Of a stretch of DNA of 32,596 nucleotides, positions 6,356 to 16,488 are shown piece by piece. Made by a program: the position numbers and the translations under genes. The stretch is from a virus, in the IMG/VR virus record IMGVR_UViG_3300030117_002880, positions 1 to 32,596 of that record. One strand, 5' to 3'. The first letter of the stretch is position 1, and the number at the start of each line of letters is the position of its first letter. Under the pieces are notes generated by a model. It was not told the origin of the DNA. It saw only the letters and a program-made list of their open reading frames with translations, and searched no databases.

Positions 6356-7782
6356 ATCTCACCAAATGGATTCTTTTCTGTAAAGTCTACTATAGATGTA
6401 TCAGATATGTATTCGATAGTCTCACTATCGTTGAACGCATCGTCATCATTATAGTCGATGCTATTTAGAGTGTATGACGCACCCGTGCTCACACCAACTT
6501 CAACAGTTATAGTCTCACCTCCTGAGAATTGACCAGATAGATTTCTTGCTAACAACGTATTTGTTGATGCATCCCAACTACTTACAAATGCAGTAGTGAG
6601 TGAAGAAGAACCCTTGATAACATCTCCATAATTAAATGTTCCTGAACCCTCTACAGAATCTCCTATTGTAATAACAGGAACTGAAGTATAACCATATCCA
6701 GCATTTGTATAGTGAACATGTGTTACCTGACCTGCACTATTGATTCCAGCAAATGCCGTTGCATTAGTAGTAGATCCGTCAGTAGAAGAAGCACCAACAG
6801 TTACAGAAGGAGCGTTAGAGTAGTTCTTACCTGCATATGATATAGATGTAACACCAACTACACCTTCTGTTCCAACACCTGCTATTGCTACTGCACCGCT
6901 ACCAACACCATCTCCAGCAACAAAAGTTACATTTGGAACATCAGAACCAGGAATATATCCTGAACCTGGATCAGTAATAACAACACTCTGGACTCCCCAT
7001 GATGAGAAGTTCCTAGTACCTACCCTGACCATCTTGGCATAACCTTGAGCAGTATGGCCTGCTCCAACTGGAGCATCAAACCTAACTGTAGGTGTTGTAT
7101 TGAATCCTACACCACCTGTTATAACATCAACCTTGTATATACCACCATTAGTAAGAGTTGTAAATACTGTTGCTTTCTCACCACCAGATCCAAGAATCAT
7201 TGTTACATTGTAACCCTCAGTCTCAAAGTCATCATCAATCTCTGCCACACGAGTATCGAAAGTCTCGTCTGTGTACTCGAATGGTTCACAGGTTAACTCA
7301 TAGGTATAGGTATTTCTTAGTTGATAAAAATCTACAATATCATTTACATACTTGATCTCAAATATAATATCCCTCATTGGGAAATACATCAAGTCACCTT
7401 CATAAGGTCTTACTTGATCTTCCGTTCTCCCAGTAGGACCGTATGTAGCAGTTGGGAACTTCCATAATAAAGGTGCTATAGATGAATCATATCTATCCTG
7501 TGAGATGATAATTTTCATCTCTGCAGTAGACCTTACACCAAATTTTGTAAGTAAATTATAGTTTTGATCAAACCCTTCATATGATGAGATAAATCCTTCT
7601 ATAGGAAATGATCTGTCAAACTTAGAACTAGTAACTTCACGTAGAACATCAGCAGTCTTCACATATACCCTAGGCATATAAATGAATTCAACACCGAACA
7701 TTCTAATATGCTCGTTTGTTAAATCCTGAACAAGTAACTGCTCTTGCTTATTACCTTGTAAGAAAAAAGGATTGAGTGCCAT
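6352..7782 (-). CDS. 14: Neck protein gp14 carrying an internal beta-repeat insertion
   Basis: The first 190 or so of 476 residues match T4 gp14: HIRMFGVEFIYMPRVYV, the SSYEGFDQNYNLLTKFGV region, then EGDLMYFPMRDIIFEI and DFYQLRNTYTYEL. The short C-terminal tail ending FTEKNPFGEI matches the end of T4 gp14 in character. T4 gp14 is only 256 residues; about 250 extra residues (about 193-440) sit between these conserved parts and contain four GxGY-type beta repeats. The protein joins the head portal vertex to the tail. It overlaps gp15 by four bases and gp13 by one base. The insertion may form a decoration on the neck; that is inference. Confidence 0.92.
   Translation of the reverse strand: MALNPFFLQGNKQEQLLVQDLTNEHIRMFGVEFIYMPRVYVKTADVLREVTSSKFDRSFPIEGFISSYEGFDQNYNLLTKFGVRSTAEMKIIISQDRYDSSIAPLLWKFPTATYGPTGRTEDQVRPYEGDLMYFPMRDIIFEIKYVNDIVDFYQLRNTYTYELTCEPFEYTDETFDTRVAEIDDDFETEGYNVTMILGSGGEKATVFTTLTNGGIYKVDVITGGVGFNTTPTVRFDAPVGAGHTAQGYAKMVRVGTRNFSSWGVQSVVITDPGSGYIPGSDVPNVTFVAGDGVGSGAVAIAGVGTEGVVGVTSISYAGKNYSNAPSVTVGASSTDGSTTNATAFAGINSAGQVTHVHYTNAGYGYTSVPVITIGDSVEGSGTFNYGDVIKGSSSLTTAFVSSWDASTNTLLARNLSGQFSGGETITVEVGVSTGASYTLNSIDYNDDDAFNDSETIEYISDTSIVDFTEKNPFGEI
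6463..7206 (-). repeat. Four GxGY beta repeats inserted in gp14
   Basis: Residues 193-440 of gp14 contain four units built on the pattern G-x-G-[YF], a short gap, P-x-V, then Gly/Ala-rich strands. They are centred on GGVGFNTTPTVRF, GSGYIPGSDVPNV, KNYSNAPSV and AGYGYTSVPV. The same pattern recurs in the gp8-like, 1235-residue and 2428-residue proteins. Confidence 0.75.
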
Positions 7783-8636
7783 TATCCAATCATATCAAGT
7801 ACAGGCATTTCGTACTCCCACTGCATACGTTCGTCTAGTCTTTCTAATTCTTTTACTCCTTCATCATATATCTCTCTACCATTGAGTTCTACACCACCAG
7901 GCATTTTCACACCTCTAAACTTCATCATATTTGAACCCCATTGTTTCTTCAACAATGCAGTAAAATACCTTTTCAAGAAGGGATCATTATAAACTTTAGT
8001 AAAGTCATTAGGATCTAATGTCCTATAACATTCAATAATCAAATAGTCATCCTCTTTCATACTACTGTAATCACTATCAATATACAATCTATTCTGCCTT
8101 CTATTGAATCTTATCTGCTTATCGGGGTGTAATATAAAATCAATATCTTCTAAGTATCTTTTTGTTTGTGTGTAACTGAGCAGTTCCATAGAACTGAAAT
8201 AATATATCTCATTCAAGAATATCTGATATGTCAAGTTGAACATATTAGATGCTATAGCACGACTATCAACTTTCCATACTTTCTCAACACCAATGACAGC
8301 ATCTGGTATTTGAATGTAGTTTTGAGTTTCTACAAATGAATGAACTGTTGTACCTACACCTGTAATAGAAGCAGTTGCAGTAGTAGTTGTAATACCTACT
8401 GAAGTTTCTCCTCCTTCATGATCAGTTGCTCTTACAGTATTGACAAATTGTTCATCTATTTTATGTTTCAAATACATCTTTTCAACACCATCCATATGAC
8501 GATCTTGAAATCTTTGAATAGCATCATCTATTAGATCATCATATTGCTCATCAGCAATATTGATTTCCAATACGGGAAAACCTAACTGTCGTTTCCCGTA
8601 ATCTATCAGTCCCTGTCTAGTATTTGGTTGTGCCAT
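7782..8636 (-). CDS. 13: Neck protein gp13 (head completion)
   Basis: A 284-residue homologue of T4 gp13 (309 residues), which with gp14 seals the packaged head and forms the connector for the tail. Family-like segments are the N-terminal RQGLIDYGKRQLGFPVLEIN, the acidic DEQYDDLIDDAIQRFQ, the QTKRYLEDIDF stretch, and FLKRYFTALLKKQWGSNMMKF near the C-terminus. A Thr/Gly-rich patch (about residues 76-103) looks like a surface loop. Its stop shares one base with the gp14 start. No Shine-Dalgarno precedes ATG 8636; instead a GATAAATA box ends five bases upstream and contains the stop codon of the fibre gene before it. Confidence 0.93.
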   Translation of the reverse strand: MAQPNTRQGLIDYGKRQLGFPVLEINIADEQYDDLIDDAIQRFQDRHMDGVEKMYLKHKIDEQFVNTVRATDHEGGETSVGITTTTATASITGVGTTVHSFVETQNYIQIPDAVIGVEKVWKVDSRAIASNMFNLTYQIFLNEIYYFSSMELLSYTQTKRYLEDIDFILHPDKQIRFNRRQNRLYIDSDYSSMKEDDYLIIECYRTLDPNDFTKVYNDPFLKRYFTALLKKQWGSNMMKFRGVKMPGGVELNGREIYDEGVKELERLDERMQWEYEMPVLDMIG

Positions 8637-11623: not shown

Positions 11624-13540
11624 TTATGTAGATGTGAATGACATTGAAGTTATTGACTGTCCAGAGGTCAATTTCCATCTGATCAGAATTCTATTATTAG
11701 AATCATTAGAAGAAGATTCTGTTCCAAAAGTACATGTGAATGTACCTCCGTTGGTATCCATTAGTCCACCTGAAGAACATCCTGGTTCTGCAGTTGTTGG
11801 AACACCAGAGCCTCTATATGCTGCAAACATATCTGCCCATCCATTTGTACCTGATAATGAAGTAGTCCAAGTTGAGTTGTCAGGCATACATACCCAACAT
11901 CCAGCAACAGAACCAGCATAGGTTATACTGAATTCTGAAACAGCAGATCTTATCAACTCAATCTGGAAGTATTGATTACCAGTTCTACCAGAAGAATAAT
12001 CTGGACCTGCAGGAAGATATCCAGATGAATAATCTGTTTGATCGTGACGTAATGTACCTCCTCTAACTGTTGCCTCATAAGTATCAATTGATCCAGAAGC
12101 ATTACCAGTCCAAGTTGTATATGCAGCAGTAGGATTGTCACCAGTTGCACCTGCCTTGACTCTGGTAGCGTTACCAGACCCAGTTCCGAGAGAAGATATA
12201 GAAATGTTATCTTCGTCCATGCTGGAGGTCACAGCAGTGGTTCCCATGATATTGACATCAGTTGTATAACTTACTCTCTGGTTGTTATGAGAACCATAAG
12301 GAGTTGAAGCATCAAAGGATGTGAAAACATTAGATGTAACAGTGGTGTGTACATTCCTTGGTTGCTGAGATATCAAACAAGTTACTCCAGTACCAACACC
12401 ATAGTTTCTTGCTGGTGGATTAGTTCCTGAAGCAAAATCTGTATAACTCTTATCTCCTGGATTTTGGAATCCACTTGTTTGTCCATCACTATTGATGAAT
12501 GAATTAGAGGTATACATGTCACCAGTTGCATTCTCAACTGTCATCACATAAGTGAATGCGTTAGCAGATGCTTCTGTATAATGTGGTATACCAGAAGAGT
12601 ATGCTAATGTTGGTGATGCAGGTGTTATAGGTGTGCTGAATGATATTACAGGAGCACCCACTGTACTTGGATCCTCATACCAATAAACAGATCCAGTTGT
12701 TGCTGAACCGTGTGTAATATTTGCTAAGTTATAACCATCAGGCGATGCTGCATTTATTATTCTAACGTCATATATCTCATAGAACCCTGCTGCTATTCCT
12801 GAATCTCTTGATGAATTGGAAGCATCCTCATCATTTGCTATCTGTAAAGCATCACTGGTAGCACTCTGATCTCCACTTGCTAATGTGATGTTACCTATAC
12901 CAGTAGAGTTTACATAACCAGTTACCGTTCCAGAATCTCCTGGACCATATTCGGTTATGTAAGTAGTAGATATGGTACTATCAGTATTCCTTGTGTACTG
13001 AGTACCTGCTACTGGAGCAGAACCGCCTGTATTGTTTGTTGGTGTAAATCCAGCACAAAGTCTACCATTACCTGCTGTTCCAGTCAGACTAATTGAAACA
13101 CCATCGATAGTAGTAGGTGCTGATGGTACTAATTTTCCTAATATATTGTTTAGTTCGTTTATAGAATCTTTTGTCTTATCGGTATTTGATATGGTGAACG
13201 CACCGCTTTTGAAACCTCCTGTAGGAGTTCCTATCGTAACGTCTCCTGTGACGTTACCCGTAAGGTCTCCTGTTACATTTCCAGTAACATTACCTGTTAC
13301 TGCTCCTGTTAGGGGTCCAACAAAACTACCAGATGTCACAATACCTGATAATACTAAAGCTGTTGAAACTCCAACTTCTTGAACTGTTGTTCCTATGCCT
13401 ACTCCATCTTGACCAGAAGCAATGAATACTTTGCCATCAGCAGTATTAATTGCAAACTCACCTAAGTCAAGTGTATTTGGATAATGCGGAACCTTACCAG
13501 CGACACTAGATCGCTTTATTTTAATCTTGGGATTTGCCAT
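11624..13540 (-). CDS. Tail-fibre-like protein with conserved N-terminal anchor and Cys-containing tip
   Basis: This 638-residue protein begins MANPKIKIKRSSVAGKVP and continues with LGEFAINTADGKVFIASG, an N-terminal module common in marine phage fibre proteins and shared in outline with the 328-residue protein of this window. A TGNV/TGDL repeat tract follows (about residues 75-100). The long middle is Thr/Ser/Gly-rich and probably beta-structured. The last 115 residues hold four Cys (GCWVC, PGC, FTCTF) in a dense aromatic/Gly context that resembles a compact tip domain. A receptor-binding or fibre role is likely. It lies downstream of a CATAAATA late box, with 40 bases of leader and palindrome between. 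Confidence 0.8.
   Translation of the reverse strand: MANPKIKIKRSSVAGKVPHYPNTLDLGEFAINTADGKVFIASGQDGVGIGTTVQEVGVSTALVLSGIVTSGSFVGPLTGAVTGNVTGNVTGDLTGNVTGDVTIGTPTGGFKSGAFTISNTDKTKDSINELNNILGKLVPSAPTTIDGVSISLTGTAGNGRLCAGFTPTNNTGGSAPVAGTQYTRNTDSTISTTYITEYGPGDSGTVTGYVNSTGIGNITLASGDQSATSDALQIANDEDASNSSRDSGIAAGFYEIYDVRIINAASPDGYNLANITHGSATTGSVYWYEDPSTVGAPVISFSTPITPASPTLAYSSGIPHYTEASANAFTYVMTVENATGDMYTSNSFINSDGQTSGFQNPGDKSYTDFASGTNPPARNYGVGTGVTCLISQQPRNVHTTVTSNVFTSFDASTPYGSHNNQRVSYTTDVNIMGTTAVTSSMDEDNISISSLGTGSGNATRVKAGATGDNPTAAYTTWTGNASGSIDTYEATVRGGTLRHDQTDYSSGYLPAGPDYSSGRTGNQYFQIELIRSAVSEFSITYAGSVAGCWVCMPDNSTWTTSLSGTNGWADMFAAYRGSGVPTTAEPGCSSGGLMDTNGGTFTCTFGTESSSNDSNNRILIRWKLTSGQSITSMSFTST
13236..13316 (-). 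repeat. TGNV/TGDL repeat tract in the 638-residue fibre gene
   Basis: Repeated four-residue TGNV/TGDL units read on the minus strand, with near-identical 12-base repeats. It matches the tract at 10213-10290 in the neighbouring fibre gene in both protein and DNA pattern. Confidence 0.8.
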
Positions 13541-13558: not shown

Positions 13559-13576
13559 CGACAGTATCTACTGTCG
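13559..13576. repeat. Perfect 18-base palindrome between divergent genes
   Basis: CGACAGTATCTACTGTCG has 8-base perfect arms around a 2-base centre. It sits over the expected -35 area of the plus-strand promoter and at the very start of the minus-strand leader. It could be an operator for a dimeric regulator, or a 5' hairpin (7-base stem, 4-base loop) on the fibre mRNA. Confidence 0.65.
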
Positions 13577-13580
13577 AAGA

Positions 13581-13588
13581 TATTTATG
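13581..13588 (-). promoter_or_regulatory. CATAAATA late box for the 638-residue fibre gene
   Basis: A full match to NATAAATA on the minus strand, 40 bases before ATG 13540. Its last bases overlap the extended -10 element that points the other way at 13587-13595. Confidence 0.6.
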
Positions 13589-13595
13589 TTATAAT
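13587..13595 (+). promoter_or_regulatory. Extended -10 promoter for the plus-strand island
   Basis: The plus strand reads TGTTATAAT: a consensus TATAAT preceded by the TGN of an extended -10 element, the type used by host sigma-70 family polymerase without a good -35. No convincing -35 is seen. A start about 7 bases downstream would leave a leader of about 12 bases with an AGG at 13602-13604 before ATG 13614. Confidence 0.65.
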
Positions 13596-13613: not shown

Positions 13614-14315
13614 ATGATGACAAAAACTCTCGCTGTGTTAACGGGACCGCAAGGTTCGGGCAACCACCTCTGGTCCAAAATATTCTCACTACACGAGGAC
13701 GTTTTTGGTTGGAAAACTCTTCTCGATAATTATTGGGAAGCACACCGTTATTCAGAACCCTTTGCTGAGTATTGGAAGGATCCGTCCACTCTGCATAAAT
13801 TTGACTGGTCGCAAAGTCAATATTACTTTACCTCTATAAGCATCCCACTTGGCATAGAAAGTAAAGGGACCAAATGGTGTCCAAACGTGGTGCAGTTTTG
13901 CACAAATGCTCAATCTTGTGGTGTGAAGACTAAAGTCTTAGTCATAGGTAGAGATCAAAATATACTTGCACATCAACAAAACCGAATAAGAGAAGAGTCT
14001 ACTATACGACACTTCCTAGACCAACTGCCAAATTTTGAAAAACCAACATATCTAAGTTATGAACTGCTTTATCTTTACAAGCAAGAGTATCTCAAAACAT
14101 TAGATGTTGGATTCCCTATAGCATGGTATGATAAGAGAGTAGATGAAATATTAGAACAAGATGCTAATAAAAAATATATCAAATACGTAGACTATAATAT
14201 CCTAGACGATGGTAACAAAACTGGGATACCTTTTCCTTCCAATCCCAATACACCAGATAAACCTTCAGGTGATTATTTACCTTGTTGTGGAGATAAACCA
14301 TGTCACTGCCCGTAG
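13614..14315 (+). CDS. P-loop sulfotransferase-like protein, first of two tandem paralogues
   Basis: A 233-residue protein starting with a strand and the loop GPQGSGNHL (residues 11-19), then a helix and HEDVFGWKTLLDNYW. The loop lines up with the sulfotransferase loop (SGTTL followed by an HPxV segment) but reads Asn-His where a Walker A would have Lys-Ser/Thr. A later strand, KVLVIGRDQNI, resembles the sulfotransferase 3'-phosphate-binding strand. It ends in a Cys/His-rich tail, CCGDKPCHCP, absent from its paralogue. ATG 13614 is followed by a second ATG at 13617; either could be used. It is transcribed opposite to the surrounding structural genes, from an extended -10 promoter. Substrate and activity are unknown. 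Confidence 0.72.
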   Translation: MMTKTLAVLTGPQGSGNHLWSKIFSLHEDVFGWKTLLDNYWEAHRYSEPFAEYWKDPSTLHKFDWSQSQYYFTSISIPLGIESKGTKWCPNVVQFCTNAQSCGVKTKVLVIGRDQNILAHQQNRIREESTIRHFLDQLPNFEKPTYLSYELLYLYKQEYLKTLDVGFPIAWYDKRVDEILEQDANKKYIKYVDYNILDDGNKTGIPFPSNPNTPDKPSGDYLPCCGDKPCHCP

Positions 14316-14941
14316 TGCTACCAATGAAAAAATTATTGATTGTTGCTGGTCCACAAGGATCTGGTAACCATTTGTTTGCTAGATTATTATCAGCACATCC
14401 TAACGTTGTAGGATGGGATTCACTGAAGGACAACTACTGGGTTCCTAGTGACGAAGAACCATTTGCTAGGTATTGGGTGCATCCAGAAGAATTGACATTC
14501 CCAGAAGGAGAGTTCTTTTGTGCTAACGTCAGTGTACCTTTCTTCTATGATGGTGTCAGACAAGTTCCCAAAATAAAAGAGGTTGCACAGAAAGCGATGT
14601 CGCTAGGTGTACAACCAATTATTGCTCTTATAGTAAGAGATAGAAATATAAATGAACTACAACAAAAACGTGTAGGTGGTGAAGTAACCATGGATACTGC
14701 CCTTGAATACTTCAAGGATCTAACATGCCACTTCATTGACCATGAGGCATTCTTCTTATGGAAAGAAAAATATATCGAATATCTTGGTAGGGTATTAGAA
14801 TTTCCTGTGACAACAAAAGGCATCGACAATTTTGTAACTGTCGATGCCAATCATAAGTATGTCTTTCCAGTGCAAGAGCACTGGTTAGACAAAAGTATTC
14901 GTGAAGGTCGTAAACCTTTTAAACAACGGCTAAAGGAGTAG
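14300..14941 (+). CDS. P-loop sulfotransferase-like protein, second tandem paralogue
   Basis: A 213-residue protein closely patterned on its upstream neighbour: GPQGSGNHLFARLLSAHPNV, then VGWDSLKDNYW, EPFARYW, LIVRDRNINELQQKR and a C-terminal DANHKYVF. The loop plus HPNVVGW is the layout of sulfotransferases, again with Asn-His in place of Thr-Thr. ATG 14300 has GGAG seven bases upstream, supporting that start; an internal ATG at 14324 is possible. It overlaps the first paralogue by 16 bases and its 3' end overlaps the convergent ferritin-like gene by 23 bases. DNA identity to the first copy is low even in the loop, so the duplication is old or the copies were acquired separately. Confidence 0.72.
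   Translation: MSLPVVLPMKKLLIVAGPQGSGNHLFARLLSAHPNVVGWDSLKDNYWVPSDEEPFARYWVHPEELTFPEGEFFCANVSVPFFYDGVRQVPKIKEVAQKAMSLGVQPIIALIVRDRNINELQQKRVGGEVTMDTALEYFKDLTCHFIDHEAFFLWKEKYIEYLGRVLEFPVTTKGIDNFVTVDANHKYVFPVQEHWLDKSIREGRKPFKQRLKE
14819..14848. repeat. 10-base inverted repeat inside the second paralogue
   Basis: GGCATCGACA and TGTCGATGCC are perfect 10-base arms around a 10-base loop, able to form a stable hairpin in mRNA. No U-tract follows, so it is not a typical terminator. It shares the CGACA...TGTCG core with the palindrome at 13559-13576. Confidence 0.6.
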
Positions 14942-15593
14942 CAGTGTTCTTATTGCTGATCTCAAGAAGGTCAGCTCTCATCTTCTCTACAAGTCCAAGA
15001 ACATGTGCTTGAAGATCTTCTTTACCTTCTACTAAGCGAGAAAGTGAACGTCCACCTAAGTTTGAGTGGAATCCTTCATCTTTAGCAATAGTAGCATAAC
15101 GTGAAGAAATGAACTTGTCATCTACACATTCTGCCATTTCCTTCCAGACTGCTTCTGCTCTTCCTTCAGCAACTAACTGATATGCAGCAAGTGCTGCTTC
15201 ATCATTAGATGCTTCGTACTTGTCTAGAAGTTCTGCACCTTTTGCCTGAGGCTTTTCTGCTTCAGCAGCAAATGCAGCAGCAACATCTAGCTTTTCGCCT
15301 GTGATGTGCTCAATAACTTCTTTAACCATACGGAAGTGCTTAGCTTCGTCTAGTGCTTGCTTGCTTAGTAATTCTAAGTCTTTTACGTCTGTAGAAGGAT
15401 CTGCGGATGCAACTTGACCAGCGATGGCGTACATATTCTGAGCTTCGTTGACCATGCGTCCACGGAAGTGCTCAACTAGGTACTCATCACTTGGTTTAGA
15501 AGCGAAGAAACGACGAACGTTTGAGCGTGATGCTTCAAACAATTCACTATTTCCTTCCTTGATCTTCTTGACGAAATCGGTTCCAGAAAGCAT
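14919..15593 (-). CDS. Ferritin-like di-iron carboxylate protein
   Basis: A 224-residue, almost fully helical protein with the metal-ligand spacing of a ferritin-like four-helix bundle: Glu50 in helix 1, Glu83 and His86 (DEAKHF) in helix 2, Glu143 (or Glu147) in helix 3, and Glu173 with His176 (DEGFHS) in helix 4. Known members include oxidases, hydroxylases, ribonucleotide reductase R2 proteins and rubrerythrins; this sequence does not identify which reaction applies. The 100-115 stretch is Ala-rich. No signal peptide is seen, so a cytoplasmic role is likely. Its DNA looks more G+C-rich than its neighbours. A TATACT and an ACTAAATA box overlap upstream, and AGGA lies about 9 bases before the ATG. 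Confidence 0.75.
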   Translation of the reverse strand: MLSGTDFVKKIKEGNSELFEASRSNVRRFFASKPSDEYLVEHFRGRMVNEAQNMYAIAGQVASADPSTDVKDLELLSKQALDEAKHFRMVKEVIEHITGEKLDVAAAFAAEAEKPQAKGAELLDKYEASNDEAALAAYQLVAEGRAEAVWKEMAECVDDKFISSRYATIAKDEGFHSNLGGRSLSRLVEGKEDLQAHVLGLVEKMRADLLEISNKNTATPLAVV

Positions 15594-15617: not shown

Positions 15618-16133
15618 TTATTTAGTATAAATGAAAAAGTAACGGAGATGTCCCTGAACTGTATGTTCAGTTTCGATACACTTCACAGTATATCCAAATC
15701 GTTCCGCTATCTTATTTATCTTTTCTTTAGACCAAGGATACCAATACATGTCACCATAATCATTCCAGTCATGAGGTATGCCTGGATTAACTCTGAATAT
15801 TGCTTCTCTTCTCCACAAACCGTGAAGTACGTCCATTTGATAATCAATGACTTTTTCGTCACCAAAATTAATAGAACCCAAAGCAAGTGCTATGTCGCAC
15901 CTTGGTCCGTTATATTCTTCTAAAGAAACTTTTATATCAGCAGCATCATTATATGGGTCTATACCAATCAACCTATCGATCTTACCCTTGAACCTATTGT
16001 ACCCACACCCAACATCTAAGACGCTAGAAGGTTCTTTAGCATTGACATAATCGACCAACTGATAGCCAGAATACTTAAGAGATTCAAAATTTTGATCTTG
16101 CCAAATACCACTAAAATAAGTATTTAATTGCAT
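15618..16133 (-). CDS. Small class I SAM-dependent methyltransferase-like protein
   Basis: A 171-residue protein with a recognisable SAM-binding motif I at residues 38-44 (VLDVGCG) and a motif II-like acid at Asp59 in LIGIDPY. A later strand, CDIALALGSINFG, fits motif IV. The C-terminal half is rich in Trp/Tyr (WNDYGDMYWYPW). It is short for the class, so substrate-recognition elements are minimal. The acceptor cannot be read from sequence. The start overlaps the upstream deoxyribosyltransferase-like gene by 23 bases, so the two are probably co-translated. Confidence 0.7.
   Translation of the reverse strand: MQLNTYFSGIWQDQNFESLKYSGYQLVDYVNAKEPSSVLDVGCGYNRFKGKIDRLIGIDPYNDAADIKVSLEEYNGPRCDIALALGSINFGDEKVIDYQMDVLHGLWRREAIFRVNPGIPHDWNDYGDMYWYPWSKEKINKIAERFGYTVKCIETEHTVQGHLRYFFIYTK
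15619..15629 (-). promoter_or_regulatory. Overlapping TATACT and ACTAAATA boxes before the ferritin-like gene
   Basis: On the minus strand TATACT (15629-15624) runs into ACTAAATA (15626-15619), 25 bases before ATG 15593. The first resembles a host -10 and the second a late box. The late box shares bases with the TAA stop of the methyltransferase gene. No -35 was recognised. Confidence 0.4.
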
Positions 16134-16488
16134 TATCTAAACATCTAAAATGACTACCAACACCTTTCATAACAGGATGATTATGAACAAACTCATCATC
16201 AGAAATTATAGCAATCTCTTTATGAAGTGCATGTCCATATGCTATTTCAAATATAGTACCGTAAGATGGTCTTCTATCATTCACTGCTTTCGGTAAATAA
16301 GCAAAAACCATATCACATCGTTCTACATTTTCTTGTGTGTTATGAAATATTTCTCCAGCAGATCCTAAATCATAACGAGGTTCAAGCACAGCTATATCAA
16401 TAGGTATGTGGTCAGAAACATAGTTTCTCCACAAGTGAACCTCATCCTCAGAACATTGTTCAATTGGACCTGCCAAATAAACTATCAC
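16111..16488 (-). CDS. Nucleoside 2-deoxyribosyltransferase-like protein
   Basis: A 125-residue protein with the layout of the nucleoside 2-deoxyribosyltransferase superfamily: an N-terminal strand ending YLAGPIE, Asp59 before a hydrophobic strand (CDMVFAYLP), and GTIFEIAYGHALHKEIAII with candidate catalytic Glu81. Known members swap bases on deoxynucleosides or cleave nucleoside monophosphates, so nucleotide salvage is plausible. The start is GTG 16488, overlapping the previous stop as GTGA; GGAG lies about 6 bases upstream and supports it. Relatives of this fold also include proteins of unknown function, so the activity is less certain than the fold. Confidence 0.7.
   Translation of the reverse strand: MIVYLAGPIEQCSEDEVHLWRNYVSDHIPIDIAVLEPRYDLGSAGEIFHNTQENVERCDMVFAYLPKAVNDRRPSYGTIFEIAYGHALHKEIAIISDDEFVHNHPVMKGVGSHFRCLDNAIKYLF

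Follow-up and report, generated by a model that had tools for sequence, protein, structure and literature searches.

The window analyzed here, a 32,596-base viral record, is T4-like, and its gp13-like neck protein (7782-8636) is approximately 54 to 60% identical to its counterparts in marine T4-like phages. Minus-strand structural genes surround a plus-strand island of two genes, referred to here as A and B (Table 1), which are the only sizeable plus-strand open reading frames (ORFs) of the window that do not shadow longer minus-strand genes. A preliminary description of this DNA had singled out the island as a pair of tandem paralogues, and our analysis agrees: both ORFs are present, the minus strand encodes every other sizeable gene, and the two proteins share 32% identity across 204 aa (BLASTP E value of 3e-35). 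The motifs described as common to the pair, GPQGSGNHL, GW, YW, EPFA, RD, and DAN.KY, are found in both proteins and are invariant or nearly so in 49 family members. The reported overlap of the two genes depends on where B begins. The 16-nt overlap requires a start at 14300, but many relatives align only from residue 8 or 9, which corresponds to the ATG at 14324, and a start there would leave no overlap with A. The copy with the Cys/His tail is A. CC or CHC is the usual C terminus of A proteins, and two or more Cys residues are present among the last ten in 62 of the 76 distinct sequences; this tail is predicted by AlphaFold2 to be disordered (pLDDT below 50).

Table 1. Features of the locus, with coordinates in the window
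Feature	Coordinates	Strand	Assignment	Basis or remark
Gene A	13614..14315	+	Predicted sulfotransferase-fold P-loop protein (STP), subfamily A, 233 aa, CC/CHC C-terminal tail	ORF and model
Gene B	14300..14941	+	Predicted STP, subfamily B, 213 aa	ORF and model; start may be 14324
Gene F	14919..15593	-	Ferritin-like di-iron protein	Ligand alignment; convergent with B, 22-nt overlap
Gene M	15618..16133	-	Class I SAM methyltransferase-like	Conserved beside F in phages and near F/cupin/B in bacteria
Gene N	16111..16488	-	Nucleoside deoxyribosyltransferase-like, accessory	PF05014, 34.6 bits (cutoff, 28.8); overlaps M
Extended -10 promoter of the A-B operon, TGTTATAAT	13587..13595	+	TGnTATAAT	63/63 distinct A-upstream regions
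T4-late-type box, CATAAATA	13581..13588	-	Serves minus-strand gene 11624-13540	Abuts/overlaps the A promoter

The ratio dN/dS was approximately 0.07 to 0.22 for A, B, and F in all comparisons but one, the exception being F in the window versus L007 (approximately 0.38). These low ratios point to clear purifying selection on A, B, and F and thus indicate that they are selected genes.

Promoters of the island and its neighbors

The single plus-strand occurrence of TGnTATAAT in the window lies 27 nt before A; the background frequency of this motif is 0.08 per kb per strand overall. In 63 of 63 distinct A-upstream regions, it is found with TATTTA just upstream, which on the other strand is a T4-late-type box (nATAAATA) pointing to the tail gene at 11624-13540. 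Other minus-strand structural genes are immediately preceded by similar late boxes (27483, 18441, 8649, and 4154); the plus strand has none. The earlier suggestion that the island has its own host-type promoter is therefore borne out, as the extended -10 element is of the host sigma70 type and differs from the T4-late boxes that serve the neighbors. These motifs suggest that A and B are probably transcribed early by the host RNA polymerase. F and M have no conserved promoter of the TGnTATAAT type and may be read from upstream. A TGnTATAAT sequence before M at 16213 was considered as a feature of the module and rejected because such a site is present within about 300 nt in only 6 of 38 loci (the window included), mostly at other distances.

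The late mRNA of gene 11624-13540 would have a short hairpin (13559-13576, minus strand) at its predicted 5' end. Among relatives, the arms vary but mostly still pair (GACAGT/ACTGTC, GACTGT/ACAGTC, and GAGAGT/ACTCTC); the retention of pairing despite changes in the arms hints at a conserved RNA structure.

Predicted fold and motifs of A and B

Confident AlphaFold2 models of A (pLDDT, 87.4; pTM, 0.82) and B (pLDDT, 85.9; pTM, 0.81) contain a sulfotransferase-type P-loop core, the outcome that had been anticipated for a structure prediction. When the model of A was compared with solved structures by VIA-align, sulfotransferases occupied the top 13 rows (Z of 8.3 to 10.6) and spanned residues 1 to 190, with 4gox as the best match (Z of 10.6, rmsd of 3.1, 161 aligned residues) and TPST1 at a Z of 10.2; kinase matches had Z scores of at most 8.3 and ended near residue 168. 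TPST1 was the best solved match of B (Z of 10.7), with the kinase-type matches Rv1421-N (9.8) and PSTK (9.7) within 1 Z unit and APS kinase at 9.4. Foldseek alone gave no match with an E value below 1e-3, and its top PDB match for A was PSTK. We consider the predicted fold to be sulfotransferase-like, a call that is firm for A and less decisive for B.

Neither protein has a sulfotransferase profile match in Pfam, PHROG, or NCBIfam. Profile-profile comparison with the Sulfotransfer_3 and AAA_33 sets was uninformative, as several of the extracted frames were antisense; the one notable match, with the APGSKWS family of phages, covered 27 to 28 P-loop columns (P of about 5e-4). The 5'-phosphosulfate (PSB) loop of sulfotransferases usually contains a Lys or Arg followed by SGTT-like residues. 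The P-loop of A and B reads GPQGSGNH in 49 of 49 aligned members and lacks the PSB-loop Lys/Arg. The Walker A motif GxxxxGK[ST] is absent as well, its Lys and Ser/Thr positions being occupied in all 49 by an invariant Asn-His. An invariant Arg at a strand end, R113, is at what we take to be the 3'-phosphate Arg position of sulfotransferases, eight residues after which a Ser is the usual residue; Q121 is found there. K187, within DxNxKY, is also invariant, and Ser76 seems to occupy the position of the SULT catalytic His. With the PSB-loop Lys/Arg and the 3'-phosphate Ser replaced and no profile matched, the sequences argue only weakly for PAPS-dependent catalysis by A and B. Because of these motif departures, A and B are treated here as sulfotransferase-like in working and are not filed as members of that family; the original assignment holds for the P-loop fold and does not extend to the profile or the loop residues.

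A cassette with F, M, and an alternating cupin

F contains the E, ExxH, E, ExxH pattern of metal ligands (E50, E83xxH86, E143, and E173xxH176), invariant in 25 sequences. It reaches the cutoff of no named Pfam or NCBIfam family, with AurF, the ribonucleotide reductase (RNR) small chain, and R2lox all below threshold, and a sequence search found no solved homologue. Of 344 viral relatives of F, the 80 closest include 39 loci with at least 3 kb on both sides of F, and all 39 contain STP genes. A bacterial homologue of M scores above the Methyltransf_11 cutoff, and N is present at only 10 of 116 loci. A and B are thus half of a larger conserved cassette that includes F and M on the opposite strand, which the first reading had overlooked.

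Uncultured viruses in their hundreds carry this cassette, as do a few bacteria. Relatives of A are encoded in 123 IMG/VR stretches and relatives of B in 41 (viral loci); none of A, B, and F was found in an isolate phage, and B was found on no plasmid. The two subfamilies form two clades separated by a branch with 100/100 support (midpoint root). The gene order is A-B, with intervening genes in L009, L012, L048, L054, and L099, and a third STP copy is present in L049 and L080. In marine phages the island is between tail-fiber-like genes, and in other phages the cassette is beside DNA polymerase, PhoH, or clamp-loader genes. Two A-type contigs are likely to be from cyanophages, judging from their Psb and transaldolase genes. 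Matches were also seen in metagenome-assembled genomes labeled Rhodospirillaceae, Nitrosopumilaceae, and Rhodobacteraceae (L111, L114, and L115); misbinning of phage contigs probably accounts for L111, which has T4-like neck and tail genes, and for L124 and L115, which have a phage-type DNA polymerase gene. Several further families resembling divergent P-loop or sulfotransferase-like proteins (components 21, 35, and 44), with no Pfam match above the cutoff where tested, were observed around the cassette at L099:3593-8050, L148:2101-4399, and L134:10605-11603.

In Massilia atriviolacea and Janthinobacterium UMAB-56, an operon-like run reads F-cupin-B, with B homologues of 54 to 55% identity. 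Near this run are M, a Pfam Sulfatase gene (63 bits), a 2'-5' RNA ligase-like gene, and, in Massilia, a Sulfotransfer_3-like gene. F was found only in Massilia among 398 sampled Pseudomonadota genomes, and a convincing B was found only in Massilia and Janthinobacterium among 393 genomes of the family sample. In both bacterial genomes, a DUF455 ferritin-like gene, an adenylate-forming-ligase-like gene, and a sulfonate/nitrate-type ABC transporter are located upstream of M (L119:3153-8443 and L121:8673-14814) and possibly belong to the same bacterial cluster.

The cupin takes the place of A beside B and F in these bacteria and in other phages. B is present at 27 of 27 cupin loci. It is also present in all 23 viral contigs with the same cupin, where it is usually accompanied by F and M and often by a C26 glutamine-amidotransferase-like (GATase) gene, an APGSKWS sulfotransferase-like gene, and a conserved gene of an unknown family. 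A cupin is missing from ten A-bearing records (46 to 192 kb), each with two STP genes, and in six records that have the cupin (96 to 230 kb), B is the single STP gene; these records are fragments, so that the absences are not proof. In L148, L149, and L153, A sits between the C26 gene and B, exactly the position of the cupin in related phages, giving GATase-A-B in place of GATase-cupin-B, and the B sequences of these three loci nest among cupin-type B sequences in the tree. A and the cupin therefore appear to be alternative parts.

Six cupin-type loci, from two groups of near relatives, contain within the cassette, at two different positions, a fusion of an APS-kinase-like domain with a nucleotidyltransferase. 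The fusion matches PF01583 (APS_kinase) with 35.7 and 23.2 bits (cutoff, 21.1), and the PHROG of the APS-kinase-like gene is named only "kinase." An APS kinase is absent from nine A-type records (46 to 192 kb); the exception, G412, which has two STP genes, contains an APS-kinase-like match far from the cassette. The presence in some cassettes of an APS-kinase-like gene, Sulfotransfer_3-like genes, or a sulfatase suggests sulfation, and the fusion would be the most direct pointer to PAPS.

A possible tailoring pathway and its relation to known systems

We favor, with a probability of roughly 45%, the explanation that A, B, F, and M constitute one tailoring cassette in T4-like phages, in which A and B would be anciently diverged P-loop enzymes of predicted sulfotransferase fold that transfer a sulfuryl group. 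F would oxidize the substrate, M would methylate it, and A and B would move the sulfuryl group from its donor, probably PAPS, to a surface glycan or small molecule of the infected cell, presumably to the benefit of the phage. B would be the core sulfotransferase-type enzyme, and A would fill the step or slot that the cupin holds in other cassettes. This explanation draws on the fold, the invariant R113 and K187, the linkage of F to STP genes and of the cupin to B, the bacterial F-cupin-B run, the APS-kinase-like fusion, the alternation of A with the cupin, and the conservation of the promoter. Against it are the lack of a profile match, the absent PSB-loop Lys/Arg, Gln121, Ser76, the near kinase scores for B, the A-type records without an APS kinase, and the uninformative PHROG name. 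A further point against it is that, in the marine type, F and M are encoded on the other strand from A and B and lack the conserved promoter, so that coexpression of the four genes is a supposition.

An alternative is that A and B are other P-loop transferases or kinases, dependent on a nucleotide rather than PAPS, within the same oxidation and methylation cassette. GPQGSGNH is as near to GxxGxGK[ST] as to the sulfotransferase loop, B matches three kinase-type structures nearly as well as TPST1, and PSTK heads the Foldseek list for A. We consider this rather improbable, though the strongest of the alternatives, since Asn-His replaces the Walker A Lys and Ser/Thr in every aligned member and the kinase matches stop some 20 residues short of the sulfotransferase matches. 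The targets of the cassette might instead be the virion or the nucleic acid of the phage itself, with F, for instance, hydroxylating, M methylating, and A and B sulfating tail-fiber residues. This would explain the position of the island in marine phages, but it is unlikely given that the cassette elsewhere adjoins replication-type or PhoH genes, that two bacterial chromosomes carry it with no T4-like structural genes among the adjacent ORFs read, and that a host-type promoter better suits early action on the host. In a reading that follows the preliminary description, A and B would form a lone heterodimeric sulfotransferase, made early and acting on host surface glycans. Their conserved tandem order and shared promoter are in keeping with such a pair, but B is found without A in bacteria and cupin-type phages, A and B are at times 0.6 to 4 kb apart with genes between them (L048, L054, L099, and L012), and F always accompanies them where the flanks suffice. 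Together with the alternation of A and the cupin, which argues against an obligate heterodimer, these observations make this proposal very improbable.

A still more tentative reading is that T4-like phages and a few bacteria have in common an uncharacterized biosynthetic pathway that yields a sulfated, oxidized, and methylated metabolite in infected cells, in which this family does without the canonical loop Lys in donor binding and a cupin can be exchanged for a paralogous sulfotransferase. Phage sulfotransferases are usually listed as orphan auxiliary genes of unclear function. Here, the partners narrow the chemistry to di-iron oxidation, methylation, a cupin, and, in some cassettes, an APS-kinase-like gene, and the related cluster in cultured bacteria (M. 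atriviolacea and a Janthinobacterium) would place the product within reach of simple gene deletion and metabolomics in a nonphage host. A literature search of incomplete coverage returned no description of an A-B-F-M/cupin cassette, which provisionally appears to be undescribed.

Marine OM43 phages carry Sulfotransfer_3-like auxiliary genes, related to a gene of Synechococcus phage S-SRM01, whose function was called unclear (PMC10580990). Like A and B, these genes and the APGSKWS family are sulfotransferase-fold genes of marine phages, and the APGSKWS family adjoins M in many cassettes. They belong to a different sequence family, as PF13469 matches an APGSKWS protein with 19.3 bits and neither A nor B, and they have not been described as a cassette with F, M, and a cupin. 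F resembles the ferritin-like di-iron oxygenases AurF, R2lox, and DUF455 in having two ExxH motifs and two further Glu residues; its matches to AurF and R2lox are weak. Unlike PAPS-dependent sulfotransferases, A and B have only about 190 folded residues, a P-loop with no Lys/Arg, Asn-His in place of Thr-Thr, Gln in place of the 3'-phosphate Ser, and no profile-level match. With TPST1/2 and the olefin synthase (4gox) and curacin (4gbm) domains, they have in common a P-loop alpha/beta fold over approximately 160 aligned residues (Z of 10 to 10.7), a strand ending in Arg-Asp, and a Lys near the end of the domain.
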